Below are positions 27,139-53,210 of a DNA stretch of 64,000 nt, piece by piece (position 1 is the first letter of the stretch; each line of letters opens with the position of its first letter). Made by a program: the position numbers and the translations under genes. This DNA is from Piper betle (lineage: Eukaryota > Streptophyta > Magnoliopsida > Piperales > Piperaceae): the NCBI GenBank assembly GCA_033002965.1, contig JAURVB010003582.1:1-64000 (forward strand), in the 5' to 3' direction. Under the pieces are notes generated by a model. The model had not been told where the DNA came from. It searched no databases and saw only the letters and a program-made list of their open reading frames with translations.

Positions 27139-27676
27139 TACGGCTATCAAATGAACGATATTAAATGAACGAACAAACTACATTTAATTTGTGTTTAAAC
27201 TTGACTTAAATAATTTAAAATTTGTTCAAATTCAACTTAAACTCAGCTCATTTGTGAGCTTGAAACTGACTCATTATAAAACTAAAAAATAACTCACTTA
27301 AAAAAATGCATGGATTGAACTTATGACCTCTATGGTCTTTAACTTGAATATCTTTCATCTAAACTATCTCACAGCTTTGTTATTATATTGTATATAAGTA
27401 AATATAATTAGTTATAATTAAATTTATTATATATATAGAATATAATAAAAAGATTATATTATCATATTATTTAATCGAGTCGAGTTCGAACTACGTGTCA
27501 ATTTCAAGTTGAGTTCGGTTATAACCAAGTCGAGTCAAATTGAACAATGCCTTGCTCAAACTTGACTTGAAGGATTCGAATTTGAGCTCGAGCATTTAAA
27601 TGTCAAGTTTCGAGTCAAGTTAAATCAAGCCGAACACCAAATGCTCACAAGTTTGTTCACTCAATTAGCAACCTTA
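27139..27676. mobile_element. hAT-type small element (family M) with tRNA-like core, inverted orientation
   Basis: Ends resemble TAGGGNTGCTAAT...ATTAGCANCCCTA in degenerate form (TACGGCTATCAAAT at left, ATTAGCAACCTTA at right). Flanks GATACACA and GATATACC agree at 6 of 8 bases. The interior is rich in GAGCTCGA/CGAGTCGAG words. On the - strand a Pol III A-box (27356-27366) and B-box (27312-27320) are both perfect matches to consensus. Confidence 0.65.
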
Positions 27677-27762
27677 GATATACCATCCTTATTCTCAATT
27701 TATTCAACTCTCCGTGATAGTAAAATCATATTTCGGTTCAATCAGTTTTTTAAAGTAAAAAT

Positions 27763-28342
27763 TGTTAGAGATATTGGCCTCCCGGAATTGGCACAACAGA
27801 AGAAAATATAGAGAAATATGACAAAATAATGATAAATAATAATAAAGAACAATAAAATAGAAATACACCCAGAATTAATGTGGACGACAAGTACTTTACA
27901 ATCCAATAAGAGGAGTAATTATCACTATGAAAGAGATCAAAACACTTATAATTTTTTTCCTTTTCCCTCGCATCCTTAGATCAACAACCCTAATTAAATA
28001 ATTCTTTGATTTTTCAGCTAGACTCTTCTCCCTCGCCAGGGTACTTTAGAAAACCTCTCTCTAGCCTCTCCCTAATAACAAATTAGGTTATGATAAGATT
28101 TAGGATAAAAAACTATATAAATAGATGAAGAAAACATCAAAGACGGGTTTGGAACTTGCAACCCACGTCGTGACCACATCGCCAGTGCCCAAGTGCATAG
28201 AAACTAGGAGCTTGGGCATCCAATTATTTTTTAGTCCAAGCAATTGGCACTTGGGCACTCTGAATCCAAGCGCCCAAGTGCTTGGTTGCATTTTCTTGTT
28301 CCACTCTTCCTTCTTCTTTGCTCCCATCGTCCAGATCCAACA
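27763..28342 (-). mobile_element. Copia LTR (family C), first copy of the tandem duplication
   Basis: The 580-bp LTR with TGTTAG...CCAACA ends is followed on the right by copia internal DNA (28343-28884) that stops at the duplication junction. For a minus-strand element this is the 3' LTR. Confidence 0.85.
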
Positions 28343-28884
28343 ATCTCTACCTACTTGAAATAATATGCTCGTCATGTTCTCAAACCAACATAACAAGCAA
28401 CCTCATACCAAATAACCGGCGTGAACCCTCGCCTCTCTTGGGTGAATCCCCCGCTTCTCCCGAACAACTAGTATGCTTCAATTCCGAGCAACTTGATTTA
28501 GGCTTGGAAAACATGCAATTTGACCCACAATGACAGGCTCTACCTGACTCCTACTTTCCTCTCCTTTGGGAACATGCATATACGCATAAGCCATCTCTAT
28601 CTACATGTGAGTCAGAGTTACCAAACTCTACCTTAACCCTACTCCCTATCAGCTTGTATAAGTTTCCAACATTCTAACCTTTAATCACATTTTTATTGTC
28701 TTTCACAACCTTTAGAACTCCACCCCTTTGCAAAACACCTACAACCTCTTGAGTCTAAAGTACCGAGTGAAATCAAGCTCTCCCTCAGCCCCGGAACATG
28801 TCTCAAAACACTTAGTGTCCTCGCAACTTCATCAAATATTTTGATTTTAATCGTCCCTATCCCAATGGCCTTGCATACAGAGTT
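28343..28884 (-). pseudogene. Copia internal 3' fragment (first duplicate)
   Basis: Matches 29818-30358 closely. It covers the sequence between the 3' LTR and the truncated protease/GAG-pre-integrase region. No complete frame. Confidence 0.75.
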
Positions 28885-29237
28885 ATTTATAATTAAACTT
28901 ATTATATATATAGAATATAATAAAAAGATTATATTATTATATTATTTAATCGAGTCGAGTTCGAGCTACGTGTCAATTTCAAGTTGAGTTCGGTTATAAC
29001 CGATTCGAGTCAAGTTAAACAATGCCTTGCTCAAACTTGACTTGAAGGATTCAAATTTGAGCTCGAGCATTTAAATGTCAAGTTTCGAGTCAAGTTGAGT
29101 CAAACCGAATGCCAAATGCTCACAAGTTGGTTCACTCAATTAGCAGCCTTAGATATACCGTCCTTATTCTCAATTTATTCAACTCTCCGTGATAGTAAAA
29201 TCATATTTCGGTTCAATCATTTTTTTAAAGTAAAAAT

Positions 29238-29817
29238 TGTTAGAGATATTGGCCTCTTGGAATTGGCACAACGGAATAAAATATAGAGAAATATGACAAA
29301 ATAATGATAAATAATAATAAAGAACAATAAAATAGAAATACACCCAGAATTAATGTGGACGACAAGTACTTTACAATCCAATAAGAGGAGTAATTATCAC
29401 TATGAAAGAGATCAAAACACTTATAATTTTTTTCCTTTTCCCTCGCATCCTTAGATCAACAACCCTAATTAAATAATTCTTTGATTTTTCAGCTAGACTC
29501 TTCTCCCTCGCCAGGGTACTTTAGAAAACCTCTCTCTAGCCTCTCCCTAATAACAAATTAGGTTATGATAAGATTTAGGATAAAAAACTATATAAATAGA
29601 TGAAGAAAACATCAAAGACGGGTTTGGAACTTGCCACCCACGTCGTGACCACATCGCCAACGACCAGGTGCATCAAAACTAGGAGCTTGGGCATCCGATT
29701 ATTTTTTAGTCCAAGCAATTGGCACTTGGGCACTCTTAATCCAAGCGCCCAAGTGCTTGGTTGCATTTTCTTGTTCCACTCTTCCTTCTTCTTTGCTCCC
29801 ATTGTCCAAATCCAACA
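29238..29817 (-). mobile_element. Copia LTR (family C), 3' LTR of the 29.2-35.8 kb element
   Basis: 580 bp, TGTTAG...CCAACA, nearly identical to 27763-28342. It is the 3' LTR of a minus-strand element. That element's 5' LTR is split into 31264-31381 and 35381-35838 by a later insertion. Confidence 0.85.
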
Positions 29818-31263
29818 ATCTCTACCTACTTGAAATAATATGCTCGTCATGTTCTCAAACCAACATAACAAGCAACCTCATACCAAATAACCGGCGTGAA
29901 CCCTCGCCTCTCTTGGGTGAATCCCCGCTTCTCTCGAGAAACTAGTATGTTTCAATTCCGAGCAACTCGATTTAGGCTTGGAAAACATGCAATTTGACCC
30001 ACAATGATAGGCTCTACCTGACTCGTGCTTTCCTCTCCTTTGGGAACATGCATATGCGCATAAGCCATCTCTATCTACATGTGAGTCAGAGTTACCAAAC
30101 TCTACCTTAACCATACTCCCTATCAGCTTGTATAAGTTTCCAACATTCTAATCTTTAATCACATTTTTATTGTCTTTCACAACCTTTAGAACTCCACCCG
30201 TTTGCAAAATACCTACAACCTCTTGAGTCTAAAGTACCGAGTGAAATCAAGCTCTCCCTCAGCCCTGGAACATGTCTCAAAACACTTAGTGTCCTCGCAA
30301 CTTCATCAAATATTTTGATTTTAATCGTCCCTATCCCAATGGCCTTGCATACAGAGTTATCTGTCATTGTTATTGTTCCACAATCAGCCTACTTGTATGA
30401 GTCAAATCAGTTTCTATCCGAACACATGTGACATAAGCAACGCAAATCTAGAATCTAATCATCCCCTGAATTCTCTCTTAATGTAGCTGACAAAAAATCA
30501 TCAAAGCTATAAGCTATATCAGCTTGGTCAAATCTTTTATCATTTTTCTCAAAATCTTGTAACCTTTTCTTGTAATTTATTTTGAGATGTCTAGTCTTGT
30601 TGCAGTAATAATAGACAACCTCTAACTTGTCTTTCCCTCTAAATCTTCCACCTTTTACCACATTCAATGCTTCCTCTTGGGATTTTTCTTCCTTTTCCAT
30701 CCTCATCTTTCAGTAGAGAAAAGAATAGTCTTGATAATCTCTACAAATATAGTCATCTTTGTCAAAGTTAAAGTGGTCATCAGATGATCATAAGAATTAG
30801 GTAAATAAATCAAAAGCAAGAATGTGTTCTCATGTTCTTCTACCTTCACTTCGAGGTTTAACAACTACACAAGAACATTTTAAAATTTACTAATATGCAC
30901 CATAAGATCCCCACTTTCAGCAATCTTGAGTCTGTACAATTGTTGTTTAATGAAACACTTGTTATACAAATTATTTGTCATGTATAAAATTTCCAACTTT
31001 GACCATATTCCCGAAGTCGTCTTCTCGCCCATCACTTTGTACATCACCTCATATGCTAAACATTGTCTTATGGTGTTCACCGCCTTTCCATGAATTCCAT
31101 CCAATCAGCAACCTTCATCCCCACAAGTTTTTCTGTTAGTGCTTTCAATAGTCCTCTCTCAACAAAAATATCTTTTATACTTTCTTAACAAAGAGTAAAA
31201 TTTACGTTGCCATTAAACCTTTCAATCTTAAACTTCAACTTATCCTTCTCCATTATAACATGT
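29818..31263 (-). pseudogene. Defective copia polyprotein: gag, degenerate zinc knuckle, pre-integrase stub
   Basis: Read right to left: a gag UBN2-like part (30880-31104; VMGEKTTSGIWSKLE), a nucleocapsid segment (30455-30706; YYYCNKTRHLKINYKKR), then the protease/GAG-pre-integrase border (30167-30367; RESLISLGTLDSRGC). After that it runs directly into non-coding 3' sequence. Integrase, reverse transcriptase and RNase H are absent, so the internal region is only about 1.4 kb. The CCHC knuckle has one of its three Cys left, with Tyr at the other two Cys positions. The primer-binding site next to the 5' LTR is also lost here. The other copies at 37.3-38.5 and 53.6-54.9 kb share the same layout, so this is a non-autonomous family. 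Confidence 0.75.
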
Positions 31264-31381
31264 TGTTGGGGATATGAACCTCCCTAAATCAGTGCAATGG
31301 AATAAAATATGGAGAAATATGACAAAATAATGACAACAACTATAAAGAACAACAAAATAGAAAGATACCAAAAATTACTAT
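31264..31381 (-). mobile_element. Copia 5' LTR, left piece, interrupted
   Basis: Starts TGTTGGGG and matches the first about 118 bp of the LTR at 54858. The remainder resumes at 35381 after the family L insertion. Confidence 0.8.
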
Positions 31382-34300
31382 TGTAAAACTCATGACCGAA
31401 TCATGGTTTTATAATCGAAACTAGTCGGTTCAGCCGTTATTTTTAGTTGAGTGAGTTTTAAAACATGCATGTTGAGCCGAAGCTGACTATGTGCTATGAG
31501 TCATGAGGGTTATGTGTATCTAAGTATATAATAATAACGTTAGAAACACAAGAGCAGAATGAGTTATCAGAATATATAAGAGTTCGCCCAATTTTTTTAT
31601 TTTGTTCAGTGGGCCGTAGAAATTAGATTTAGGTCATTGATTTTATTAGGATGCGATGGTTAGTATTTTTAGTTGGGTTGGTAGTCTTTAGAGCATGTTA
31701 TTTGACGAATATCGAATTTGTTTATTCCCATTTTTATTTTTAACTTGCATTCATGGCGTGTTTGACTTATGTTTATGGAGTGGTTAACTTACCTTAGTAG
31801 CCATTAGGCAACTTTTCTAGAACCCACTTTACACCTTGTTGGTTTAACTTTAGCCGAGTACCCCGAGACTTACTTGTGCTCGCCCCTTTTCCTCTTCTTT
31901 CTCCTCGACGGTTGACCCTGCTATCTTCCCAAACCCCCACTGACCTCCTCCCCCTCTCTCCTGACGACCACCACCACCAACGGCCCCCACTGCTACCGGC
32001 AGCAAAGCCACTCCTGCCTCCCCTTCCCTTCTTCCTCCTCCTCCCACCCTATTCACCGCCGCCGCTTCTTGCCATTTTTGGTCGTCACCTTCGGCACGCC
32101 ACTGTAACAACACGCCCATTCCAAGTTAGGAGCCAAGTGTTACTTTATGAAACTAAGTGTCTCATAAATTAATTTTCTATTAATTTTCAAGATTTTTAAA
32201 TAAACCCATAACATAAAATATAATATAACAAATACTCGGAATAATTTAAGCCCCATGAGCCAAACCAAAATCCCACTACCATGTAAACGATCTAGAAGTA
32301 TAATAACAAATAAGAAATAGTCTAGTCCAATAATAGAGTCCTCTAGTTGTCCCAACTCTACCATCATTCCATGCTCATACCTGCGAAGGCAATTTTACGT
32401 TAGTGATAAAAATACTACGTCATATAATTACAAGAAACAAGTTAATATATTCCACAACATCATTAATTATGCCTTTTAGTGATTATGAGCCTATTCCAAA
32501 CTCTTACTATGTTGGGAGGGTGGTTGCCCATCCAGATGCAATCTCATGTATGCGTACGCACGCTACATAGCTCACGACATGTAGTTACCAATATTTTTCA
32601 TTGAATCACCCTCTCGGTATCACAAATGCACAATGAGCCATCTTGTGCCACTACATCATGTCACCCCTTTCGACATGAGGGCAGATATTTAATCTTTCAA
32701 AAATTTTAAGGGTGCTGCCCCGTTTCGGACTGAGTTAGTGCTTTGAATCCAGTTGCGCTCAGTGCAGGTGGTTGAATGTGGGCTCAGACCGACCAAGACT
32801 TCCAAATAGGAATATATAACATTTCGAGTAATTATACGGACCTAGATTTGTGATGAGGCACCCACAACTATGACACACGATCCTAATATGAATGAAACTT
32901 CTCTAAAGCTTTCACTTTGTAAGCCAAATATGCTCATAAACTATCTAGAGGATGTTTTATTTAACATCAACAAACTTCTCCTTTATATAGAAGAATATGT
33001 GTGGAATTAAAGAAGTAACTATATTAAATTTTATAGAAAAGAACGTAATCACATATAACTATATTAAACACTAACCATTTGTACGATAACGAAAAGTCCA
33101 AAAAAATGACTATTGAGTCAAAATGAATGAGTGCCCAATTACACTCATGACTCCCAATCCAAAAAATTTAATAAATGAAACTTATTTAAAATCATCCATA
33201 AAAACCATTGCACTGGTTTCTAAATGTTATAATTGATAATTTATGATATTTATTCTTAAGAATTAATTTAATTAAATAATATTTATGATTCATTCTAAAA
33301 TTTATATAACCCTAAATAAAATAACTAATTATTTTTTCGGGGTTTTACGGCCGTTGTCACTCTCCCACCGACTTGTCCTCGCTTCCCTTCCCTTTCCCCT
33401 TGCCTTCCTCTACCTACTCACCCTTCCTACCCATTCTTTGGTCACCGCCGGTAATGGCAATTCACCACCGTCGTGGGTCAATTTCTGGCCGGTCACCTCA
33501 GCTAGACCACCTACCTTACCTTGCCCCAGCCCTAGTCCTAGCCCTCTTGCCTTTCTCCTTGCCAGCTGATTTCCAGCCACGACAGCCACCCTTCGCAACC
33601 ATCGGCAACCACAACCGCTGTCGTCGTCACCAACTTCATACCAAATCATTGTGAGATGCTTTTCGCTTCTCAAATTTTAGATTTTTGATTCATTCTGATC
33701 GTTATGCATATCATCCATAATTTTTAAGAATTGTTCATGATTTTGTTGATGTATTAATCTTGTAATTTCATGATAATTATCTGTGATTAATAAATTCCTT
33801 ACGAAATTTAACGATTGATAAGGATTAATGATAATTCGAATTATTTGATTATGAAATTGAATGTGTTATGGATGATGTTGGAAATTGTGGAGTAGGTATT
33901 AATTTTATAATTGTATAAGTTAATTATTTAAGTGATTAGAAAGTTAAGTTAGATCAGGGATTGATATGAGATGATAATAAGTTTAAAACTTTTGATGTAG
34001 TCACATAATTAAAAGTAATGACAGGAAGGTCTTAAACTGTTAATTATTTTATTTAACTCATTTGTTGATTTCCTTATGTTGATGGTAGTATTTATAGTAC
34101 TAATGCTGATATAATAATTTTCATGGATCAATTTCATGCATGCATTATATACTATTATGGGTGTTAGTGTGTAGTCTTGTTATATCGGTATGGAGTAGGA
34201 ACTTGCATGTAGGCGCGAGACCCTGCTTGGAGTTTCTACCAAGTCCGTTTAGAACTCGTCCCTTGTTTATTGCTTCTTCTATTGTGATTTGGTTTATTAT

Positions 34301-37282: not shown

Positions 37283-38484
37283 CAATTCGATTCAGGCTTG
37301 GAAAATACTTAATCTTACCCATAATGATAGGCTCCACCTACTCTTGCATTCCTCCGAGTCTTCAAACTCTACCTTAACTGTAGTCCCTGTCAGCTTGTAT
37401 AAGTTTTTTAAAATTTGACCTTCAATTACAGTTTATTGTCTTTCACAACCTTTAAAACTCCACCCTTTGTAAAATACGTTTAACCTCTTGAGTTTAAAAT
37501 ATTTAGTGAAATCAAACTCTTTGTCAACCCTAGAACATGTCTCACATCACTCACTGTTTTCACAGTTTCATCAAGCATTTTGGTTTTAACCATCTCTATC
37601 CAAATGTCCTTCCATGTAGAGTTATCTGGGCAATAACCGGACACATGTGATATGAGCAACCCGAATTTAAAATCCAATCATCCCTTCAATTCTCTCTTGA
37701 TGTAGTTGACAGAATATCCTTGCTGCTATAACCTACACCAAGTTGGTAAGATCTTTTATCATTCTTTTCAGAATCTTGCAACCTTTTCTTGAAATTCCTT
37801 TTTGAGATGTATGGTCTTCTTGTAGTAAAAATAAATAACCTCTGACTTGTCTTTCCTCTTAATCTGTACTTTTCTGCAATCAATGCTTTCTCTTGGGATT
37901 TTTTTTCTTGCCCTTCATCATATTTTCAGCAGAAAAAATAATAGTCTTGACATCATCTACAAATATAGTTTTCTTTCTTAAAGTTAAAGTAGTCATCAAA
38001 TGATCATAAGAATTAGGTAAATAAATCAAAAACAAGATTGTTTTCTCATCTTCTTCTACCCTCACTTCGAGGTTTAACAATTGTACAAAAATATTTTTAA
38101 ATTCACTAAAATGCACCATAAGATTCCTTCCCTCGGTAAGCTTGGCTTTGTACAACTGTTGTTTAATAAAACATTTGTTATACAAATTATTTATCATTAT
38201 AACTTTTTCCAACTTTGACCATATTTCAGATGTTGTCTTCTCACCCATCACATTGTGGATCACCTCATCCGCTAAACACTGTCTTGTAACATTCATCATT
38301 CTGTTTTGAGTTTCTATCTAATTAGCCGTCTTCATCCCCGCAGGTTTTTGTTAATGCTTTTAACAGTTTTTATTAACCAAAATATTTTTTTCACTTAATA
38401 GAGTAAAATTTCCTTTGTCATTAAATCTTTTAATCTTAAACTTCAACTTATCCTTCTCCATTATAACCTGGCTCTGATACTAAT
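37283..38484 (-). pseudogene. Defective copia internal region with intact gag core
   Basis: On the - strand from the LTR at 38485: a primer-binding site (GTATCAGAGCC, about 38470-38480); a 139-codon gag frame at 37880-38299 with UBN2 features (QCLADEVIHNVMGEKT, SEIWSKLEKV, LNLEVRVEEDEKTILFLIYL, PNSYDHLMTTLTLRKKT); a degenerate nucleocapsid part (37686-37883); then the truncated protease/pre-integrase border (37480-37677). Integrase and reverse transcriptase are absent. The left end is the recombination junction with the ghost unit, so there is no 3' LTR. UBN2 gag proteins form the virus-like particle of copia elements. Confidence 0.75.
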
Positions 38485-39064: not shown

Positions 39065-41650
39065 AAAAATTGATCTTTTCATTCAACAATAAACTAATAT
39101 TTTACAATATTTTAGGAAGAGTTTATTTTTAATTTTTATTTGATCTACTAAAATAAGTTGACAATAGAACACCCAGTATATGAGTTAATAAGCCTTTTCC
39201 CTGCTTTCAATGGCATTGCATCAGCAATAAAGAAGGATGATCCAAAATCTATATAATAAGAAAATGATAAAAAAATGGATGTGCAGTAGAAGACAAATTT
39301 GATAAATTAATAAAAGGATAGAAAGAAAGGAAAGGAACTGCACAATTCCCATATATGCTCCATATGAAGACGAAGGTTTGGAATTTCTTGCTTTAAAACT
39401 AGATGCAAGCTTGCAAACGGGACTTCAAGGTTTGTTTTTTAACAAAGAAACAAAGACTTGTGGATTTATTGAGGAAGAAAGCAGCAAGGAATTTGCAGAT
39501 GGTGGATGACGAGCACATGGTTCATTGACCTGAAATTAGAGATGGTCCAAGTTGCATCCCAATTTGCTGGTCGGCCCGGTTTGGCTCTTATCATCCCCGG
39601 CTCAACTTCCACACATCCGGCTCAACCGATTTCTCCTTGCCATTAAACTTCGTTTGGAACCTCAATCCAACCGAAAGGTAGAAACTGGCTAGCAGCTACC
39701 CTTGTTACCGCCGCCGTTCCTATTCGGAGAAATCACTTTTGATTTGTTGTCTTTGTTATTGACGGATGATGGGGGTGTTTTCTTATCTTAATGGGGAAAG
39801 GAAACAATGTGAATCGATAGGATGGAGTCATTAATATCAGTGTCTAATATATTAGCTTTTGCAACAAAGCATTGATATGAGATACCAAGCTTCTGAATAT
39901 AAATATATTATTTCAAATGGAGATGTGCACCCACTTTAGGTTCTTATTTTTTGAATGTAAAAACAAGCCCCGCAATGCTGCGTTTTTCTCCCGTTATCAG
40001 GTGTGCAACATTTTTCACATGGTAGGGTGCCACCAATGACATAAAAATTACAAAATTGGAGTCTTTTACTAGACTCTTATTGCTATCTTTAAGCACGTAT
40101 TCAAGGACAAACAAACGAAGAAATATGAGTACAAGATGATCCGGATGAGAAGAATAAATAAAGGACATCAACAAATCGGTAGGCGGATGGGAAAAAGAAG
40201 GAACCGAGGATGAAGAAATAGAAAAGAATCAGAGAGTGTAAAGTAAACAGTAGATGTGGTTTGGTTTGAGGTTCGAAATAGTTTGGAAAAGAAAAATAGG
40301 TTGGGCTGGATGGGTAAATGTCGAACCAATTGCCACAGCCAGAAATTATTAAAGGATGGGTCCATTTGCTTCGAGAGAAAATGAAAGAAATAAAATAAAA
40401 GAGGAATCGTGCTTGGATTAGAAGAAAACTTTATGAAAAAAAATTCCACCGTGTAGAAATACTTTGGGAAAAGATCTTCACAAACCTTTTTTAAAAAAAA
40501 TATATAAGAAAAGAAAAAGCGGGCAGTCCAATGTCAATGGATGAATTTTCTTTTCTCTATATACAACTAAATACACACTAAAAATTTATAAAAAAAGAAT
40601 CTACTTTTTATTTTATAGTTTTTCTTATCATCAATATACCCTTTTTAAGATGGGTTCCTTTCCTATGTATGATAATAAGCTCTCCAAACCAGTTCGACCA
40701 GAAATTGGGAGCAGTTCAAGACTCAAGTTGTTTCTGACATAAGCCAAAATAGTTCAAAATTGTCTTTTTTATTTATATATATTGAGCCGAACCATCGAAA
40801 ATGTGGTTACAATAATAGACTTGCAGTAATCAGGAAAGTAAACCCATTTGTTTGTTTATTTGTCGTGAAAAATTTTCACAACAAAAAACAAATGGGTTTA
40901 CAATACTAAACTCTGCGAACCCGTCGTTTTTCACCAAAATACGATGGGTTCGGAATCACATCCAAATTTCCAATACAATATTCCCATTAGCTGTCATGTC
41001 TCTGTTACTAGTGTGTACGAGCGGTCTCTGTGACAGAAAATCAGTGTTTGCCTCTTGTCCAGTTTGCAATTCCATCGATTCTATCGGACCAAAAGTCAGG
41101 TATATTTAATTTCCTTCTTCTTCAATTTCTTTTTTCCTTCTTTTTATCAATTTGATTTGTTTACTTCTCCGGAATCAAAGTCGGTATATTCGTTTCTTTC
41201 TTTTTTGCCCGCTCGTTTTTTCTTGTTTTTTTTCGGAAAGGCATTCAGATGAAAACTATCCACGATTGAAAAGAAATCGACCATAAATTCCTTCTCAATT
41301 TTTTCTCCCACCATTTCCAAAGAAACCACGATTGAAACCAGGTAATACATACGGATTAACCTTTCACCCATGCGAACGTCACTGCTCTCGTCCACCATGG
41401 CTGCTCAATCCCAATCAAGCCGACCCGTCACATATCGTGCATGATGGATATACAGACATACATAACACCACACAAACACCAGCCAATAACATATAATAAC
41501 TACCAACAACATGTATAAAAACTCCATCCCATCCACGCTCTCAACGACGACGGGCACTGTTCGTTTCTTCTATACTTCATTATAATTATTACTCTTTATA
41601 ACTTACTAGCTACATAGAGAAAGATTTAAGTAAGAGAATCTCATAGTTTG
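39065..41650 (+). repeat. UGT unit 2: duplicated upstream block
   Basis: Colinear with the unit 1 block at 15534-18353. It contains the exon-like frame at about 39340-39508 and a - strand hydrophobic frame region at 39944-40449, broken relative to the 16407-16745 counterpart. The promoter has one TATA box. It is shorter than unit 1 because the core promoter is not duplicated. Confidence 0.85.
41514..41520 (+). promoter_or_regulatory. TATA box of UGT-2
   Basis: TATAAAA in ATGTATAAAAACTCCATCCC, the same context as 18033. It lies 137 bp before the ATG. It is the only such box in this promoter. Confidence 0.65.
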
Positions 41651-43108
41651 ATGGAGGAGAAGAAGAAGCAATTAGGAGGAGGATTGGTACATCATGTACT
41701 ACTGGTTTGTTTCCCAGGTCAAGGGCATATAAACCCCTTCCTCAGATTGGCAAAGGCCATTGCCTCCAAGGGTCTCTTGGTCACCTTCTCATCCAACCAA
41801 ACCACCGGAAACCTGATGAACAAGGCTTCCGGCAATCCCACGGGCGACCTCTTGCCCGTCGGCAGCGGTCACCTACGCTTCGAGTTCTTCGACGACGGCG
41901 CCGACCTCGCCGCCGACAGTTTGGACGTCCTCGTGCACAAGCTCGAGACCGCTGGCCCCGCCGCCCTGGAGGCGTTGATCCGACGGCAGGGCGACGCCGG
42001 CCGCCCCGTCGCCTACGTCGTCAACAACCCCTTCCTGCCGTGGGTGGTGGACGTCGCCGTGGGGATGGGCATCAAGTGGTCGCTCCTCTGGGTGCAATCC
42101 GCCGCCGTCTTGTCGGCCTACTACCACTACTCCCGCTTCCCAGAGCTCTTCCCGGCGACCGACGAGGGGTGGGACGACTTCGAATTGACCCTCCCCGGCC
42201 TGCCGCCGCTCAAAACCGAGGACCTGCCCAGCTTCTTGCTCCCCTCCAACCCCTACAAGTGCCTAACCAAGTTGTTGCTTCTACAAATGGAGAAGCTCCC
42301 CACCGCCTCATACGTGCTAATCGAGTCCTTCGTGGAGCTAGAGCGCCGAGCCATAGAGGCTAACGCCGCCCTCCTCCGACCAACCCTCCTCCCGGTTGGC
42401 CCTCTAGCCAAGCTCGCCAGGGAAGACGACCGCGCCGCCGTCCGCGGCGACATGTGGAAGATAACGGAGGAATCGGTCGAGTGGCTGGATGGCTGCCCGC
42501 CGGCCTCCGTCCTCTACGTCTCCGTCGGCAGCATCGTGATCCTCACCCCGGCGCAGGTGGCCGAGATGGCGGCGGGACTGGCCTGCAGCGAGAGGCGGTT
42601 CCTTTGGGTGCTGAAGCCGGCGCTGGGGTCGAAGGAGACGGGGCTGCCGGATGGGTTCGAGGAGGCGGTGGCCGGCCGCGGGCTGGTGGTGCAGTGGTGC
42701 CGGCAGGAGGAGGTGCTCGCCCACCCGGCTGTGGCCGGGTTCCTGACCCACTGCGGGTGGAACTCGTCGATGGAGGCGATCGCCGCCGGGAAGCCGGTGG
42801 TGGCGTTCCCGCAGTGGGGCGACCAGGTGACGGACGCCAAGTTTCTGGTGGATGAGTACCACGTCGGGGTGAGGATGAGGGCCGTGACGGCCGAGGAGGT
42901 GCGGCGGTGCGCGGCGGAGCTTTTCGACGGCGAGAGTGCAGCGGCGATGAGGGAGAACGCGGCGAGGTTGGCGGCTGCGGCCGCAGATGCCGCCGGCGGG
43001 ACTTCGTACCGGAATATGGAGGTGTTCGTGGACCATTTGTTGTCGCTCTCGGACGGACATGACTCGGAAAGTATGGTCAATGATGGATCGATTTTGGCCT
43101 GTATTTAA
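41651..43108 (+). CDS. UGT-2: family 1 UDP-glycosyltransferase, group L (UGT84-like)
   Basis: Single exon, 485 aa. Catalytic His26 in FPGQGHINP, Asn125/Asn126 in VVNNPFLPW, and the PSPG box from Trp349 (WCRQEEVLAHP) to Gln392 (FPQWGDQ). Its PSPG and following residues (NSSMEAIAAGKP, QWGDQVTDAKFLVD) keep the pattern usual in UGT84 proteins, whereas UGT-1 and UGT-3 deviate. It is therefore likely the copy closest to the ancestral activity of forming glucose esters of small carboxylic acids. About 92% identical to UGT-3. A small indel near 43071 relative to UGT-1 shifts the end, so the protein gains a tail (SMVNDGSILACI) read from what is 3' untranslated sequence in unit 1. The tail is beyond the catalytic fold and probably tolerated. 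Confidence 0.92.
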   Translation: MEEKKKQLGGGLVHHVLLVCFPGQGHINPFLRLAKAIASKGLLVTFSSNQTTGNLMNKASGNPTGDLLPVGSGHLRFEFFDDGADLAADSLDVLVHKLETAGPAALEALIRRQGDAGRPVAYVVNNPFLPWVVDVAVGMGIKWSLLWVQSAAVLSAYYHYSRFPELFPATDEGWDDFELTLPGLPPLKTEDLPSFLLPSNPYKCLTKLLLLQMEKLPTASYVLIESFVELERRAIEANAALLRPTLLPVGPLAKLAREDDRAAVRGDMWKITEESVEWLDGCPPASVLYVSVGSIVILTPAQVAEMAAGLACSERRFLWVLKPALGSKETGLPDGFEEAVAGRGLVVQWCRQEEVLAHPAVAGFLTHCGWNSSMEAIAAGKPVVAFPQWGDQVTDAKFLVDEYHVGVRMRAVTAEEVRRCAAELFDGESAAAMRENAARLAAAAADAAGGTSYRNMEVFVDHLLSLSDGHDSESMVNDGSILACI

Positions 43109-43737
43109 CTAAATATTAATTATATAATATTTGATTAAATATGAATACTTTACCCGAGAAAAAATTATTTATGACAATATTTAGAAGTGATGGAAAATTA
43201 GAGTTAATTATCCAACAAAGAGAATTTTTTAATAATGTGGAGCACTTAATTTTAAGTCAAAAAATTGACTAATCAAAACATTCTATATATATAATTAGTA
43301 ATAAATTGTGGTTCTTTGTAATTAGGTTGGCTCGGCCATCTTAGGGTGGGAGATTTGATCCGATTTAATAGTTAATCATATAATTAGTAGTAAATAATAC
43401 TTTATTTAAAATTTTGTCACCCCTTGCCGTTATTTATTTTTTTAATTTTCGTTTTTAATAATGGGAATTACAACAGTGGTTGATCACAATCCACGATGGT
43501 AGGTGATGCTGGTTGAACATTGACTCATTAAAGCTGATTGTTTGTTACAATATTTACCCAATATATATATAACTTTATTTTGTTACTGAATATCGGTTTA
43601 TACATAGATCTTAATTTGTACATACGTATATCTAGTGAACCCTTTTCAAAGACCTAGAGTGACGCTTTGGTAAAAAAACAAAAGGACCAAGTGACGCTTT
43701 GGTAAAAAAAACAAAAGGACCAAGTGTGACTGCAGAT

Positions 43738-43947
43738 GGGGTTGCTAATTGAGTGAGCCAGTCTCGTGAGCATTTAACGTTCGGCTCGGCTCTGACTCGA
43801 CTCGAAACTCGACATTTAAATGCTCGACTCGAACTCGACTCGAACTTGAATCTTACGAGCCGAGCTTGAGTAAGGTCGTGTTCGACTCGACTCGACTCGG
43901 TTGTAACTCGAACTCGACTCGATAAAATAATATAATAATATAGTCTT

Positions 43948-44001
<54 letters not shown>

Positions 44002-44327
44002 ACAAAGAAGCAAGATAGTTGAGATTGTAAGTATTCACCTTGATGACTTCAAGGTTGTGGGTTCAAACCACATTGGCCTCATTTTTTTTAAGTGAGGTAT
44101 TTTTGACTTTTAATCGAGCTGATTTCGAGCTAACGAATGAGCTGGATTGAAACGAGCTCACAAAAATTAAACAGTTTAAGTATATTCGAGTTCGAGTCGA
44201 GCTCGAACACATAAAAGATATTCGAGTCGAACTCGAACATGTATGTCCGAAAGCTCGTTCGAACGAGTTTCGAACTGTTCGAGACGAGTTCGAACATATA
44301 TTGAGTTTGCCTCGCTCACTCAATTAG
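43738..44327. mobile_element. hAT-type small element (family M) with tRNA-like core
   Basis: Unit 1 shows the near-empty site (GCAGATG then CCTCGACTAAAC around 20396-20417). The ends read GGGGTTGCTAATTGAGTGAG and CTCACTCAATTAG, an inverted pair. The last about 8 bases of the right end and the target duplication are lost. The interior is full of ACTCGAACTCGACTCGA-type words, has a long TA microsatellite (about 43957-43996), and carries an A-box-like TAGTTGAGATT (about 44015) with a perfect B-box GTTCAAACC (about 44062). Confidence 0.75.
43957..43996. repeat. (TA)n microsatellite
   Basis: About 40 bp of uninterrupted alternating TA inside the family M element. Such runs vary readily in length. 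Confidence 0.9.
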
Positions 44328-45177: not shown

Positions 45178-45810
45178 ATTCATTTATTGCAACCCCATAT
45201 ATTTCAGTGTTTATACCTTATGATCCATGGTATGGTATACGTAAAATATGGTGATGGCGTCTTTTTATATATATGTACACATAGAAATAAGATTGAATGA
45301 GTCGGAGTCTCGAAGAAAGCTACTTACTTGTACAAGTGGGGGTATCCTATCAGTTGGTTAATGAACAATTGTTAGAAAGATCAAACCATCCTGCATTAAG
45401 ATCACGGTTATTATTATTTTTTTGCACTAGACAAACCTACTCTCATTATCTAACTAATTTCATAATCTAGTGGTTCATATCAACTTCGACTACCATAAGA
45501 ATATCCATATTAGCTGATATTAAGTTTTTCACTAGCTAGTTTACAAAGTCGGCTTTTTTCCCTAGTTGGCTGATTATGCTTATGGTTTAACATGTTAATG
45601 TAATGGCTTTTGTATTCATTTATTGCAACCCATATATTTCAGTGTTTATGCCTTATGAGCCATAGTATGGTATACGTAAAATATGGTGATGGCGTCTTTT
45701 TATATATATGTACACATAGAAATCAGATTGAAAGAGTCCGACTCTCGAAAGAAAGCTACTTGTACAAGTGGGGGTATCCTATCAGTTGGTTAATGAACAA
45801 TTGATAGAAA
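45178..45810 (+). repeat. Local duplication of an about 200-bp downstream segment
   Basis: The segment from TTCATTTATTGCAACC to GTTGGTTAATGAACAATTG occurs at about 45178-45380 and again at about 45611-45810. Units 1 and 3 have one copy each (about 21628-21820 and 61435-61627). Confidence 0.8.
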
Positions 45811-46366
45811 AAACCAACTTGATCTCATAGTTTGTTTGGCTGCTCAACAAGAAGCTTAATAAAGGGAAGCAATTTTCGTCATTCCTTAAAATAGTATTTT
45901 GATCATGCGATGAAATATAAGTACAACATGCATATGGAACTTACTTTCAATGAAATATAAGCACATGATTTCTTTTGTACATATAAGGAGATTATTATGT
46001 ACAAAATAGTGACACAGGGTTGCCCAAAAACCTCTTTATAGAGAAGTTTTCCCAACAGTGCCCTCTACTGATTTAAAGAATTCTATCATATGACTATACA
46101 AATCATAGTTAGCAGTTATACTTAAGATGAAATCATGAGATATTATAGTTAGCAATTATTGTAAGCATTAGGCGGTTTACAACTGCATTGGTACTTTGTA
46201 TCAGAACAAATTGCTAGCTCGTATAAAGAGCTAGATTTTTGAGGAATAGCGAAAAGGAATATTATCATCAATGCAGCAACAAGTAGCAAGTATAGAAATG
46301 CAACCATAATACATAATATCTAGACAAATAATGTGCAGGAACATGCTTTGAAATAGATGCATCAAG

Positions 46367-46437
46367 TTTTTTAATGATGAAGGATGAGGCTCATATTGGA
46401 GATAGAAGTCGATGCGTGAACTGTTGAAGCAACAATT
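46367..46437 (-). pseudogene. Lipase exon 8 remnant, unit 2, cut by a solo LTR
   Basis: On the - strand it reads NCCFNSSRIDFYLQYEPHPS and continues LKNLMHLFQ, the counterpart of 22398-22493. The first bases of the exon are on the far side of the LTR that begins at 46438. Confidence 0.75.
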
Positions 46438-47266
46438 TGTTGGGAATCCCTCATCATACGATGGATGGATGTGAGAAGACATACAACTACATGGTAAATC
46501 GTAAAAACACAGAGTTACTCTAAGGGGTACGAAGAATTTGAGAAGAATTATATTTAGTGTTTGACTCTTCATATCTACGAGGTTGAGTGTATCTTAAGTT
46601 TGAGTCTTTTACTATATATATGCAGTTGTATTGTGTGTGAAATAAAATTGAAGAGAATACAACTAAAGAGGTGTATTATTTAGGTTTCACTCTAAAGTTT
46701 TACAGTGAGGCTCTCCCTCTCTCTCTTAGCGGAAGGAAAGCCTCTCCTCACAAGATATGGGCCTTTCCAATTAGATTGTCTCTTCTAATTAGAGTTTGAG
46801 AGTGTTCCGAATTGGATGGGATAAGTTTGAGAGTGTTCCCAATTGGATGTGTATCCCAGTTGGCGATTATTCCTAATTAGAGTGTGCTCCTGTTAGTATG
46901 CTCCAGTTAGATGAGTGTTCCTAATTAGATGTACGTGTTTCAGTTAGAGGTTGAATGTGTACCAGCTTTGTGTTCCAATTAGAGGTTGAGTGTTCCCAAT
47001 TGGATATGTATTCTAAATTAAATGTGTATCTCAGTTGGAGATTATTTTTAATTAGAGTGTGTTCCAATTAGAGGTTGAATGTGTAACTCGGCTTTGTCTG
47101 ATATGCATGCCCATTATTTGATTATTGTGGATAGTTTGTGGTTTCCCTTTTATTTTGAAGGTTCTATGTTAAATTTGTATGTCATTTATTTTTTAACCTT
47201 TATTGGTTGGCTTTATCACACACTCAACATTATGTTTGGTTATTTTGTTTGTTAAGAACCGTAACA
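46438..47266. mobile_element. 829-bp solo LTR in lipase exon 8
   Basis: TGTTGGGAATCCC...CCGTAACA, flanked by CAATT (46433-46437) and CAATA (47267-47271). The unit 1 sequence CAATTTATTCCTTCGC (22484-22499) is the empty site, and unit 2 continues with the matching CAATATATACCTGCAC. The interior has a CT-rich patch (about 46707-46727) and irregular repeats of CCCAATTGGATG/CCAGTTGG. Confidence 0.85.
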
Positions 47267-47486
47267 CAATATATACCTGCACATTACACCAAATAAAACT
47301 ATCCTGCAAATTTAAAGAAATACCAACCAGAGATAAGGCCATCCATAATTACGCCATCCATAATTAAATAAAAATAGAATGAGAAGTTAGAACCACTGTT
47401 ATACTCTTGCATCATTGAACAACAACCAATTGATAATTACTAAAACAAGTTCAACTGTGAAACTGGAAACATACCCGGACAAAACT
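47267..47486. other. Lipase intron remnant between two solo LTRs
   Basis: About 220 bp. Its beginning matches unit 1 just after the empty site (ACACCAAATAAAACT). Its later part is missing from unit 1, where AAATAAAACT is joined directly to ACTACAAAAGATGCAG. Confidence 0.6.
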
Positions 47487-49697
47487 TGTAAAACCCGTGA
47501 CTCGAGTCAGAGTTTTACGTTACCGAACCAGTTGGTTCAATCGTTGGTTCGAGTCGAGTCAGTTTCATTAAACTGCGTGCTGAGTCGAGGCCAGCCGTGA
47601 GTTATGAGCGACGAGAGTCAGGTGTACCTGAATATATGATGATAACGTCAAGAAGATGGTGAGAAATGAGTTATTAGAATATATGAAAGTATGCAGTATT
47701 TTTTTATATATGTTTGATCGTAGAAATAGTTTTAGGCCGAATAACGCATTAGGACGCGTTGGATTATATTCGGGCGGGTTATTAGTTGTAGAGTATGTCA
47801 TTTGGATGTTATTGTGTTTGTTTTATTTTATGGGATTTTTCATATTTTTCTAGATTTTTTTAGGATTTATTACAAACTAGTTATTATTTTGACTCGAGTA
47901 GGAATCGAGTCAATACTTTTACGAGTTTGCCACTAGGGGTGTTTTCTCCTTTCCCCGACACTTCCCCCTCCCAAAACCCTCGCCGCCCACTGTGGTTGTC
48001 GTTGCCGCCACTGCCGATGCCGCACTGCCGCCGTGCTGTCGCTGTGTCGCCACGACCCACCCCGGCTACCGTCTAGCCACCACGACGCCTGAATCGCCCC
48101 ACAAGTCGCGATGCCCCCCTTGTTGATTCACCGCCGCCGCCATGACCCGGACGACCACCCCCTTGACCTCCCCGACATTTCCCCCTTACCTAATGCCGCC
48201 GTCGAAGCCAGCTGTGGGCCTGATCGAAACGACCGACTGCACTAACCGAACTCGACTCCGCCGCCAGCGGTCATCGCCGCCGCGGCTGTCCTTGCTGCCA
48301 CCACCATTGGGATGAGCTCACCGAGCCGGTGCTAACCCTTACCCCCGATTGCCCCACCAGGACAATCGCCGGAGCTTGCCGGAAGTTGCCAAAAACTGGA
48401 TTCACCCAAATTTGTTGGAAATCACCTGATCTTCCGCCAAATCCCTCTGATCGAACCCTATCGAACTTCAGATGCCATAGGGTACCGAATTCGAGCCACG
48501 AATTCTACGAGGTATAATGTATTTAACTTAATTATTTAAAAGTATTGATTATTAGAATTGCATGATAGGATTGGTGAATTGCGTGTTATAATTATGTATA
48601 TAAATGTAGAATTGATTAAGGATAAAATATGAAATTTGTTTGATTGAGTGGTGTTAAAAATGGAGGCCAAAAAACTAATTAGGGTAAGTAGGTAATGATC
48701 ATGATCTAATGCAAACTAGCCTAAGTAGACTTGCTGCGTGATGGATGTATGACTGCATCATGAGCGGGCGTTAGTATTTAGTTTTGATGTGTAGGTACGG
48801 AGTAGGAACTCACCGCCTAGGCGCGAGGACCCGATTGGAGCTTCTGGGAGGTTCGTTTAGGACTCGTTCTATGTTTTTACGCTATTCTATTGTGTATTTG
48901 ATTTATCATGTGCAGGGAGTTAAGTGGCGTTTTATTGGATCCCACTTAACTCGGACCATTTAGCCAACAGCTCTTTTTTAGATTAATAACCCTCGAGGAT
49001 GAGATCCCTCGAGTTTGTTTTCGAACTTCAGATGCAGGGGCCTATTGTATAAGTCCCAACCCAGGCCTATATATGTATAGTTTTCGCGTTTTCGGTGAGA
49101 AATGCGAGGGATTAAAGCTGTCAGGACTGTAGAGGAGTAGCACGGAACCGCGCACACATGTACCTGCCACGTGTAATGTATAATGATGGTGTGTTAATGC
49201 TATGTGAATGATAATTTTGATGTATTTGTTTGGATGAATTGCTTGTTATAAAATGAACGGATAAATGTGAATGAGTAGGGAGCCTTGGAGTTCAGACTTG
49301 GCTCAGGTGAAACAAATGAGATAATGATTGAATGCCATGGTAGATTGTTACGTTTTATCATATTTTGATAAAATATTTATATACCCTTGTCGTGAACAAG
49401 TTGGCCCTTATTGCACTTTTAGGAGAGATTTTGTACGTTTTTCTGTAAAAATTAATGAACTATTATTTAAATTTCTTGCTTGTTGAATGGTTTGTTTTGC
49501 TTGCACGTCATGGCATGCATGTAGGATCGCGTTAGAACCCAATTGTTCTCATTCATGCATTTCATGTTTGCATCTTCATTTTAAGATACCGAGGGTAGAT
49601 CCGGGTTGGCTTAACCGAACCCAATAGATTAGTGAACGGTTCGGTCGCCGGTGACATTTTAGATCAGTTCACGGGTGAGCCGAAACGGGGTGTTACA
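47487..49697 (+). mobile_element. Complete family L solo LTR with perfect 5-bp target duplication
   Basis: 2211 bp, TGTAAAACCCG...GGGGTGTTACA, flanked on both sides by AAACT (47482-47486 and 49698-49702). It holds a GC-rich pseudo-coding section (47940-48500), a CGCCTAGGCGCGAGGACC landmark (about 48811) and palindromic CTCGAGGATGAGATCCCTCGAG (about 48991). No internal retrotransposon region and no second LTR are present. This copy defines the ends used for the other family L copies. Confidence 0.9.
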
Positions 49698-50136
49698 AAA
49701 CTTGCTGACATATGTTCATCAAGGAGTTCCATTTCACCAGGTTTACAACCACTACAAAAGATGCAGTAATCACTCTTCCTCATTTAAGAGATTCAAGGAT
49801 CAAATATAGAAAGTAGCTTAAATTGTGAGCAGTTCTGCTCTATTTGATATGTAACATTGTTGACTACTGCGAGCAAATCGTGGGCTCCCATTCATATGCA
49901 TGACCAACATATAGAGCACAATAGCAATTATGTTACTAGATAATGTCACAGACTGATAGTCAATCTGAACTGTAGGGTGTGGAACTTGTGGTCACTTTTT
50001 TTATCATTTTAAGATCTTTTCATGAACCCAAAATGAACAACCAATTCTAATTAAAAGCTGGAAAGTCAAAAAACACAAAACTGTGCGGGAGACCTGTTTT
50101 CCAACTTTCAGCATGCAGCAACGGTTATCTGGCACT

Positions 50137-50868
50137 TACGGACGGCTACTAATTGAACGAGCCAGCTCGTAAATATTTAGCGTTCGGCTCGACTCGACTC
50201 GACTTGAAAATTAATTCAAAATTGACTCAAAATTAATTCAAAAATTGACTCGTACTCGATTCAATAAAATAATATAACAATATATATATAATATCACTTG
50301 TCTACTCAAAATATATATAAAATCATGAATAAATATTATTATTAACTACGTACTAAATGGTCGTGGTGGGGATATTTTATTTTTTATTTTTTATTTTTTT
50401 ATTAAATTTGGGTCATTCTTATAATCGAACGATCCAGATTAAAATTTGGAAAATAAATATTATTTGACTATGCTAAAGTAGTCCATATATATATATATAA
50501 TAATAATAAGTGTAATTATAACTAATTATATATATTTATATACAATATAATAATAAAGTAGTGGGATAGCTTAGATGGTAAGTCTTTAAATTGAAGATTC
50601 AAAGGTTGTGGGTTTAATCCATGCCGCTCAAAATTTTTAAATGAGATTCTTTTAACTTTTAATCGAGCCGTTTCGAGTTTACAAATGAGGTGATTTCGAG
50701 TTCGTCAAAACTAAACTGTGTGAGTATATTTGACTCGAATAGAATACGAATATTGTAAAAATATTGAATGGGTTCAAATATGTTGTTGAAATTTTATTTG
50801 ATTTAAAGTTGAATTCGAACAACAATTGAAATTGTTAGAGGTCAGGTGTGTACAATTAAACTCAATAT
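50137..50868. mobile_element. hAT-type small element (family M), decayed, with tRNA-like core
   Basis: Begins GGCTACTAATTGAACGAGCC and then the TTTAGCGTTCGGCTCGACTC block shared with 43738. Unit 1 lacks it (TCTGACACTGACCAATAGTC near 22918). A perfect A-box TAGCTTAGATG is at 50567-50577 and a B-box with one mismatch, GTTTAATCC, at 50612-50620. The right end is worn, so the border is approximate. Confidence 0.6.
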
Positions 50869-50999
50869 GACTGACTAATTGTCATAACGAAACATACGGA
50901 GAAAAAGAACGGTTATGGATGCTATCGAAATTGTTACAATCACGTGTCCACATACATAATCATTAATGACTGTATACGAATAAAAACAAAATATACTCT

Positions 51000-51640
51000 G
51001 CAAGGTCCAACGAGGGAATCAGGTTTTCTCGTACATAACTTATCATGCCTGAAGGGTCAACCAGTAAAGGATCCTGCCAGCTCCAGTCCCAATAGTACTG
51101 AAATGAAAAATGGACGGTCAGATCTTTTAATGCGGCCGGCCACAATCCATTACGCCCATCACATATTACCATAAAACAAGCATCTGTATGGTGAAGAAAG
51201 GTTAAACAACAATCCACCAATGCGACAAAAGAGCAGACTGGCATCACAAGCTGCATGAAAAATCCCTGCCTATGCCAAAGCCAATACATGAACAAAAACA
51301 AAAATACTCTGCACAGCTCAACCAGGAATCGGTTTCTGGTGCACGGAGCTTATCATGCTTGCAGGCTCAACCAGTGAAAGATCCTGCCCGTTCCAGTCCC
51401 AATAGTCCTGAATGAAAATGGACGGTCATACCTTTCATGCGGCTCGGCCACAATCCAATTACGCCCATCACATATTACCATAAAACAAGCACAACTGTAT
51501 GTAATTGAAGAAAGGTTAAACAACAATCCACCAATGCGACAAAAATGAGCAGACTGGCATCACAAGCTGCATGAAAAATCCCTGCCTATGCCAAAGCCGA
51601 TACATAAGAAACGCATTACCATAACTAAGCTATTGCCTTA
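51000..51640. repeat. Tandem duplication of lipase exon 4 with part of the upstream intron
   Basis: Two copies of the stretch from the exon 4 core (ATCCTGCC...CCAGTCCCAATAGT) to GCCTATGCCAAAGCC lie side by side, at about 51000-51295 and 51300-51605. The junction is near 51295. Unit 1 has one copy (about 23530-23815). Confidence 0.75.
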
Positions 51641-52356
51641 TCAAAAGCTAAGATGCTTACCTTTTCTTTTACAGTACCACGAACGTGCCAACCCAAACAT
51701 CAAATCATTGATCACAAGGACAAACCCCCAATGATTCTTCCACTGAATTTTCAAACCAATCATCCCCTCCTGATTGATTTCAAAATTTTACACGACATGC
51801 ATAAGGAAAATACTTCCCGTATATATTTTGTAAAATTACAAGTAATGTGAATATAAAGAGATCATTGTTCTCAAATGTATAACAAAAAACTTCCGCATTA
51901 TTGGTTTCATGTTCTCCAAAAAATAGTCAATCAGCTTGTTCCGGCTAATACATCTGCAAATTAATAATACTTGACCTGCTCTAATCTACAATCGACCAGT
52001 AAATAAAGCAAAAGGCAATAGCCAATCAACCACAGCAAGAAAAAAATTCCCCGTAAACAGCCCGTGTTAAAGAAGAACAGCGGGACCAGAACTGATTATG
52101 ATCCCTCCCCAACCGCCTGATATACGCTGAGCACCTAATAAGTAGCCATCCTTCGTCCCCACCTGCACAAACACAAAAAATGAAAAAAATGAAGACTTCC
52201 ACAAAAAATCAAGACTTTTACAACAAAACACCAACAACCACCTCTTCTTTAATCATTTTATAGAAGATTTACGAACAAATAATAATAATAATCTCAATAC
52301 AAACGAAGAATTTCTTCACCGTGTGTTCCATGCAAGGATAGCCAAGAGGCCCGATA

Positions 52357-52409
52357 GAAATACACTTAGAATTAATGTGGATGACAAATACTTTACAATC
52401 CAATAAGAG
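52357..52409 (-). mobile_element. Copia LTR, short left piece
   Basis: Matches the middle of the family C LTR (from AGAAATACAC to AATCCAATAAGAG). It continues at 53219 after the family M insertion. Its left edge is a recombination junction with lipase exon 1. Confidence 0.75.
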
Positions 52410-53210
52410 TAGGGCTGCTAATTAAGCAAGCTAACTCATGAACATTTAATGTTCAGCTCGATTCGACATTTAAATGCTTGAACTCGAATTTTATGAGTCG
52501 AGTTTAAACAAGGCAGTGTTTGACTCGACTCAACTCAGTTATAACTCAAAAACGACCCGTAGCTCGACTAGAACTCGACTCGATAAAATAATATAATAAT
52601 ATATATAATATCACTTGCCTACTCAAAATAAATATAAAATCATAAATAAATGTTATTATTAACTGCGTACTAAATGATGGTTGTGGTGGGGGTATTTTAT
52701 TTTTATTTTTATTATTTTATCAAATTTGGGTCATCTTTATAATTGAACGATCCAGATTAAAGTTTAAGAAAGAAATATTATTTGATTATATATATATATA
52801 TATATATATACTAATAAGTTTAATTGTAACTAGTTATATATATTTATATATAATATAACAACAAGCAAGTGGGGTAACTTAAATGGTAAGTCTTCAAATT
52901 CAAGACTTGGATGTTGTGGGTTCAATCCACTCTAAGTACAGTTTTAAATAGGATTTTTTTTACTTTTAATTGAGCCGATTTCAAGCTCACGAACGAGCTG
53001 ATTTCGAGCTCGTTAAGACTAAACATCGAGTCAAACACAAACACTAAACATCGAGTCAAACACAAACACTATAAAAATGTTTGAGTCGATTTCGAACATA
53101 TATGTTGAAAAATTGTTCGATCATGAGCCGAGTACGAATAAACTTTGAAGTATTCGAGTCGAGTTTGAACACAAATTGAACTATGCTCGCTAGCTCGTTT
53201 AGCACCCCTA
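52410..53210. mobile_element. hAT-type small element (family M), best-preserved copy
   Basis: 801 bp, with TAGGGCTGCTAATTAAGC at the left and the complement of TAGGGGTGCTAAACGAGC at the right. The 8-bp target duplication is AATAAGAG (52402-52409) and AATAAAAG (53211-53218), 7 of 8 matching, and the copia LTR reads on across it. A B-box GTTCAATCC (52920-52928) is perfect. The A-box-like TAACTTAAATG (about 52875) has one mismatch. No transposase. Confidence 0.85.

Follow-up and report, generated by a model that had tools for sequence, protein, structure and literature searches.

A hAT-type small-element family in Piper betle with a core derived from a tRNA-Phe(GAA) gene

Results

Four related copies in the window

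The window, by which we mean the whole stretch of 64,000 nucleotides analysed here (Piper betle, assembly GCA_033002965.1, contig JAURVB010003582.1, positions 1 to 64,000 of the forward strand), contains four copies of a short hAT-type transposable element, designated c1 to c4, each with a mid-element core that descends from a gene for the phenylalanine transfer RNA (tRNA) with anticodon GAA, tRNA-Phe(GAA). An earlier reading made from the letters alone, hereafter the sequence-only reading, had proposed these copies as one hAT-type family with an internal tRNA-like unit of the RNA polymerase III (Pol III) type. Mutual alignment confirms that the four are related along their whole length and that the proposed positions were right within a few bases. 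The features are listed below, the assignment of the cores to tRNA-Phe being argued in the following sections.

27139-27676, minus strand: c1, hAT-type element copy of 538 bp, ends TAAGGTTGCTAATT / TGATAGCCGTA, delimited by alignment with c2-c4
27301-27373, minus strand: c1 core, tRNA-Phe-derived; A box 27356-27366, B box 27312-27320, terminal T-run
28883-29151, minus strand: truncated c1 duplicate without a core, 94% match at a constant offset of 1475
43737-44327, plus strand: c2, young-subfamily copy with its right end deleted, delimited by alignment
44009-44081, plus strand: c2 core, tRNA-Phe-derived; A box 44016-44026 (one mismatch), B box 44061-44069, followed by a T8 run
50141-50868, plus strand: c3, older-subfamily copy of about 728 bp, 5' end GACGGCTACTAATTG
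50560-50632, plus strand: c3 core, tRNA-Phe-derived; A box 50567-50577, B box 50612-50620 (one mismatch)
52410-53210, plus strand: c4, complete older-subfamily copy of 801 bp, ends TAGGGCTGCTAATT...TTTAGCACCCCTA
52868-52940, plus strand: c4 core, tRNA-Phe-derived; A box 52875-52885 (one mismatch), B box 52920-52928
27905-27912, no strand assigned, with a second at 29380: empty c4 target site AATAAGAG in a paralogous block, from comparison of duplicated blocks

The 8-bp target duplications that had been proposed are present wherever they can be measured. The flanks of c4 agree at 7/8 positions (AATAAGAG, 52402-52409, and AATAAAAG, 53211-53218), those of c1 at 6/8 (GATACACA, 27131-27138, and GATATACC, 27677-27684) and those of c3 at 5/8 (CACTTACG, 50133-50140, and GACTGACT, 50869-50876), while the duplication of c2 is unreadable, having gone with the right end. 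Duplicated blocks occur across the window and supply element-free sites for comparison. The blocks corresponding to c4 read ...ACAATCC AATAAGAG GAGTAATTATC..., where the window has AATAAGAG, the 801-bp element and AATAAAAG; the insertion of c4 is proven by this empty site. An empty paralogous site was also found for c3 (CACTGACC at 22923-22930), and element-free paralogous blocks for c2 lie around 20390-20470 and 60174-60254. No stop-to-stop frame of at least 120 amino acids (aa) was found in the four copies. The coreless piece at 28883-29151, at a constant offset from c1, is the product of a 1475-bp tandem duplication, with no insertion event of its own. The breakpoint of this duplication falls within c1 (27408 / 28883), and an 85-bp unit in two tandem copies, 87% alike, lies immediately to the left of c1 at 26966-27134.

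Box motifs in the window

The A box is perfect in c1 and c3 and the B box in c1, c2 and c4, as the sequence-only reading had it; both are perfect in c1 only, and the inter-box distance is 34-35 nt in all four copies. Taken alone, such matches are weak evidence. When each copy was shuffled 300 times with its dinucleotides preserved, a pair of boxes with at most one mismatch and a spacing of 20-50 nt arose in 25 shuffles of c1, 79 of c2, 29 of c3 and 49 of c4; a pair as perfect as the one in c1 arose in 2/300 of its shuffles. The box consensus alone was consequently rejected as proof of a tRNA core, since shuffles match it too often. In a sliding comparison with a yardstick set of 21 tRNAs, a plant tRNA-Phe included, the c3 core was the best of 3196 positions of the sliding frame (score 153, the next 122). 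The scores of c1 and c2 (104) sit in the background of the window, yet just 1/1000 shuffles of either attains that score. ARAGORN called no tRNA in the window. Within the window, the case for a tRNA core is suggestive only; the core was judged to be real because it is found in genomic copies selected by their ends and because its match to a tRNA gene extends well beyond the boxes.

Genome-wide copies and their cores

The family was searched for in the plant assembly to which the window belongs, of 527 Mb in 11,211 contigs. A search for the end pattern TAGGGNTGCTAATTGAGCGAGC that tolerated one mismatch gave 3,189 genomic matches (1602 forward and 1587 reverse), and the same pattern read backwards, used as a control, gave none on either strand. 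The pattern stands at either end of the young copies, which therefore possess short terminal inverted repeats. Seventy loci chosen by this pattern resolved into 48 distinct two-ended elements, eight repeats of elements already met from the other end and 14 loci that are one-ended by the pattern; the older subfamilies lie outside this end-based sampling. The 48 young elements are about 500-800 bp long, with a median pairwise divergence of 7%, and their target duplications agree at 8/8 positions in 30, 7/8 in seven, 6/8 in four and fewer in seven. Of these elements, 36 retain at least 90% of the core and 12 retain 30-90%; none retains less than 30%. In the one-ended loci, homology crosses the core in nine and ends short of it in five.

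When loci were selected by the core instead, 29 of 30 continued into the arms of the element. The remaining one (L020) is an armless 119-bp fragment of the element middle. One remnant (L006) contains two tRNA-derived cores. The patterns searched for in viral contigs had no match there. Many equally scoring copies of a hAT transposase domain, with open frames of 506 aa and in several cases 676 aa, are present in the genome, which suggests recently active autonomous hAT elements.

Identity of the parent tRNA

The core descends from a tRNA-Phe(GAA) gene. The 33 cores that we compared with the set of 21 tRNAs came from 30 loci, c3 among them, and from c1, c2 and c4; tRNA-Phe(GAA) was the best fit for 32. 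The consensus of the older cores equals the plant tRNA-Phe of the set at 49/73 positions in a gapless alignment, compared with a mean of 18.6 and a maximum of 35 in 20,000 shuffles, and beyond both boxes the agreement is 30/50 (maximum in shuffles 24). Transitions account for 16 of the 24 differences, and the anticodon GAA is retained. At a relaxed threshold, ARAGORN assigns both the older consensus and the core of locus L016 to tRNA-Phe(gaa).

This plant tRNA-Phe sequence has six exact occurrences in the genome, and 34 further scored places match it at 83-93% (98 candidates at first look). Twenty of these weaker matches were fetched, two more (L130 and L134) came by way of a search with flanking segments, described below, and the other 12 were left out. 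Family sequence adjoins the tRNA unit in all 20 fetched matches. In 16 of them hAT arm sequence stands on either side (L111 and L112 lying inside the longer stretches L126 and L125), three (L109, L115 and L116) have the flanking segments and 20-38 nt of an arm besides, and one (L140, a stretch of 701 bp) has the flanking segments and is armless. The parent tRNA that the sequence-only reading had left to be identified can accordingly be named, with exact and graded copies in the same genome. Among other tRNA-Phe sequences met, L121 has a tRNA-Phe gene followed, about 60-90 bases further downstream, by a partial second tRNA-Phe 3' part. Five contigs labelled Thermoplasmata/Thermoplasmatota and one labelled Flavobacteriales (L103-L108) agree exactly with the eukaryote-type tRNA-Phe pattern over 41 nt, which may reflect contamination or real similarity.

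One of the six exact genes (contig C3140, 24621-24693; L124/L128) sits in a long element copy that has diverged and is truncated at its 3' end. Upstream of it are the 5' arm and a segment of about 280 bp, whose identity to its counterparts in ten long copies is 80-86%, and downstream just the start of the 157-bp segment that follows the tRNA unit in such copies; no 3' end was found within the 2.7 kb read. Under like decay about 4-7 changes would be expected in its tRNA and none is observed, the Poisson probability of which is 0.0009 if half of the divergence lies on its branch and 0.015 if 30% does. Selection, gene conversion or closeness to the source would all explain this intactness. The tRNA body is exact and preceded by CAA, but the T6 run of the long copies is missing, no T4 was seen by eye in the next 60 bases, and for that reason we do not claim that the gene works. 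The other five exact genes have T4 runs within about 20 bases, and their flanks share just short matches (27-88 nt) with the long elements.

Long copies and a series of shorter forms

The long copies L125, L126 and L134, of about 1.3 kb, share one layout: 5' arm, a segment of about 280 bp, tRNA-Phe-like unit, a segment of 157 bp that includes a T6 run, an internal 5' end, and 3' arm. L125 measures 1289 bp, with a 6/8 duplication (CCCATTGC/CCCAACGC) and the internal 5' end TAAGGTTGCTAATTGAG; L134 measures 1273 bp, with a 7/8 duplication (CTACTCCT/CTGCTCCT); the duplication of L126, judged by eye, is 6/8. The ~280-bp segment matches at 40/40 scored places (the best 40 of 63 candidates) and the 157-bp segment at 45 places (the best 40 of 146 candidates being scored); among the matches listed, 22 of the 40 places of the former have a place of the latter within 800 bp. 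In each of the eight loci picked by the ~280-bp segment, the tRNA unit and the 157-bp segment behind it are present at least in part, and five of these loci have the internal end.

These forms can be aligned in a series from the long copies through L127, which is without the 280 bp, and L113 to the older short copies and the young consensus. The junction AAGGTAGTGGGATAGC is common to L113 and the short elements, and it is because of this junction that core positions 1-3 (AGT) mismatch the tRNA. Median identity to tRNA-Phe positions 4-73 is 0.88 in the long and intermediate copies (n=8), 0.875 in a further group (n=2), 0.68 in older cores (n=32) and 0.63 in young ones (n=47); L113 and L114 have 86-89%. 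Further short forms with differing junctions, chosen for having a tRNA unit, also keep one.

Conservation of the promoter parts

CAA, the A and B boxes and poly(T) are given as marks of plant tRNA genes in a section of PMC11700998. Of the 48 young elements, 40 have an intact A box, 31 an intact B box and 26 both. In these 26 a T4 run always lies within 35 nt, and the boxes are 32-34 nt apart in 25. CAA stands at most 10 bp upstream of the core in 43/47 young and 16/26 older cores; of the 26 older cores, 19 have a T4 run beginning at positions 74-76, one has it from position 81, and the other six have none by position 90. The tRNA body of the short copies is not intact. The promoter parts are there, with no clear sign that they are kept for use. 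The substitution rate is 0.020 in the A box (rank 133 of 562 compared windows) and 0.068 in the B box (rank 446). These rates represent mostly decay after insertion, and selection on a few source copies may be hidden beneath it. Deletions of at least 4 nt affect the core region in 14/48 young elements, all with different breakpoints.

The fold gives a similar picture. Cloverleaf pairing in 27 older cores holds in 62.6% of cells, against 62.2% in shuffles, and the covariation score was equalled by 45/500 shuffles. Sliding the pairing by 1-3 columns lowers it to 35-52% of cells, a drop to be expected if the fold was inherited from a tRNA. In the cloverleaf check suggested by the sequence-only reading, there is little or no covariation. 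Selection on the boxes or on the cloverleaf was considered and set aside, having left no clear sign in substitution ranks, pairing or covariation. The core is best read as a passenger that decays at about the pace of its surroundings.

Other features of the window

Three duplicated long open frames on the plus strand (18333-19784, 41630-43108 and 57948-59375) are those of a UGT84-like glucosyltransferase. PF00201 is found in relatives of the second frame, the named relatives being gallate, limonoid or cinnamate glucosyltransferases of angiosperms at about 50-54%; the best hit of a UGT84-like protein is at 60%. A large inverted repeat at 9229-14277, with many arms that are 71-94% complementary and a centre near 11.75 kb, is possibly a foldback element or an inverted duplication. 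An open frame on the minus strand (37880-38317) has, by eye, the look of a copia-type gag, UBN2-like.

Discussion

We propose, with considerable confidence, that a non-autonomous hAT family took in a host tRNA-Phe(GAA) gene by fusion of elements and was then shortened and multiplied, with the core as a passive component. The family would have been moved by a transposase supplied in trans, and an early member would have taken up host DNA in which a tRNA-Phe(GAA) gene lay complete. The likeliest occasion is a Pack-TYPE-like fusion, in which two copies lying close together moved as a single unit. Such a fusion of neighbouring elements predicts an internal end sequence, as is seen in the long copies. 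Internal deletions may subsequently have removed the host flanks and the internal end while the tRNA body, the A box, the B box and the T-run stayed, and one short derivative would then have multiplied to well over a thousand copies. The hAT-type family with a tRNA-derived core, as put forward by the sequence-only reading, is supported by its genome-wide copies, their 8-bp duplications and a parent tRNA that can now be named.

Several results weigh against this proposal. The general tRNA models perform poorly: the Rfam tRNA model finds no match in the whole window either at threshold or at E 10, gives c3 15.9 bits and c4 19.1 bits as short stretches (gathering score 29), misses c1 and c2 even in that form, matches no tRNA in 20 older loci and scores L016 at 11.5, while ARAGORN, run at its normal threshold, makes no call on the older consensus or on the core of L016. 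Against 24 phage T5 tRNAs and the E. coli tRNA-Phe no isotype was prominent (a T5 Ser tRNA accounting for 15 and Phe for 8 of the 33 cores), and this yardstick was dropped as uninformative. The 70 end-selected loci were the first listed places, 30 given by the search and 40 picked by hand, and the match list follows contig order, which means that the sample is not random. No autonomous partner was found: the two hAT transposase copies that were inspected do not have the ends of the family, and hAT dimerisation domains are abundant (1242 genomic candidates, of which 150 were scored). A donor locus with the captured flanks and no arms did not appear among the best 40 of 63 and the best 40 of 146 candidates scored for the two segments, and for this reason we only infer capture, as opposed to insertion. 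Part of the ~280-bp and 157-bp segments could be old sequence of the element itself, and the short forms that keep the tRNA after losing their flanks could hint at selection, though a tRNA was what they were chosen for.

We regard it as quite improbable that the tRNA-derived unit functions as a Pol III promoter which aids the element, through a transcript, open chromatin or insulation from silencing, and which is kept by selection on source copies. Both boxes and a T4 run are intact in 26/48 young elements, at least part of the core persists in 48/48, the three changes in the boxes between the older and young consensus hit degenerate positions in our reading, and several differently joined short forms retain the tRNA, in a sample chosen for having one. 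However, the unremarkable ranks of the two boxes, the distinct core-region deletions, and a pairing and covariation close to those of shuffles give the idea of a Pol III unit that benefits the element no support so far. A broader version, in which the family captured a whole tRNA-Phe gene and seeds Pol III units, perhaps once including a working tRNA gene, whose Pol III-bound box and terminator sites aid the element by transposase access or by evading silencing, or change the chromatin and tRNA pool of the host, strikes us as unlikely.

It is very unlikely, in our estimate, that the core is a tRNA-Phe-derived short interspersed nuclear element (SINE) that landed in a hAT element and travelled with it, a possibility raised by the sequence-only reading as an old SINE captured by a miniature inverted-repeat transposable element (MITE). 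According to part of PMC10741241, nearly all plant SINEs derive from tRNAs and have A and B boxes; the core resembles a SINE head in having both boxes within tRNA-related sequence, and L140 has flanking segments and no arms in its stretch. The capture was nevertheless not borne out. Around the core we saw neither the body or tail of a SINE nor a duplication belonging to it, the 8-bp duplications flanking the arms and the core lying mid-element; the B box and the hAT 3' arm are only about 40 bp apart, a distance that could hold little of a SINE body or tail; the tRNA of the long copies is followed by their shared 157-bp segment and an internal hAT end instead of a tail plus duplication; and hAT family sequence adjoins every fetched tRNA-Phe-like repeat. 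As for a chance likeness of the boxes in AT-rich DNA, it draws on the frequency of one-mismatch box pairs in single-copy shuffles, the poor scores of general tRNA models and the background-level scores of c1 and c2, but it has next to no credibility: beyond the boxes too, the core aligns without gaps to tRNA-Phe as it occurs in this genome, graded intermediates match at 83-93%, and one truncated long element contains the exact sequence. In our view the graded intermediates have already refuted it.

If a cut-and-paste element did capture the gene, as we favour, such capture would be a route other than retroposition by which tRNA genes or Pol III promoters are multiplied. The graded series from intact gene to fossil within one genome offers a testable case for the effect of Pol III promoters on the fate of DNA transposons, and it bears on plant counts of tRNA genes and of tRNA-like small RNAs. 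It also carries a warning for annotation, as SINE and MITE finders could overlook such elements; MITE finders, to our knowledge, do not look for A and B boxes. On the SINE side, the AnnoSINE filter is described in part of PMC8825457 as dropping candidates with terminal inverted repeats, so elements of this kind would escape it.

Short terminal repeats and 8-bp duplications are named as hAT hallmarks in a portion of PMC10741241, and the family shares its small size, terminal inverted repeats, 8-bp duplications and high copy number with the plant non-autonomous hAT elements and hAT MITEs nDart1, dTok and nDaiZ, as covered in sections of PMC12595863. Unlike them, it bears a Pol III-type core derived from a tRNA gene, at least part of which is present in 48/48 sampled two-ended elements. 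The terms tRNA, polymerase III and Pol III do not occur in the main text of that 2025 review of plant MITEs, insofar as the text is accessible, and no tRNA-bearing hAT MITE was among the open-access papers listed in our literature searches, which is no proof of novelty. With tRNA-derived plant SINEs, as characterised in parts of PMC10741241 and PMC8825457, the family has in common tRNA-related A and B boxes at SINE-like spacing, but it differs from them in its terminal inverted repeats and 8-bp duplications and in that no body or tail was seen. Pack-TYPE elements acquire DNA through the fusion of neighbouring insertions that are moved as one, according to portions of PMC8903248, where the Pack-hAT elements are non-autonomous, as this family is, and contain apparently captured host DNA with internal homology to a host gene, here tRNA-Phe. 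The word tRNA is absent from the main text of the same paper, as far as that text extends. The present family departs from the Pack-hAT elements, as portrayed there, in that the captured unit would be a tRNA gene and not protein-coding DNA, and in being very abundant. Pack-TYPE elements are the closest known system.

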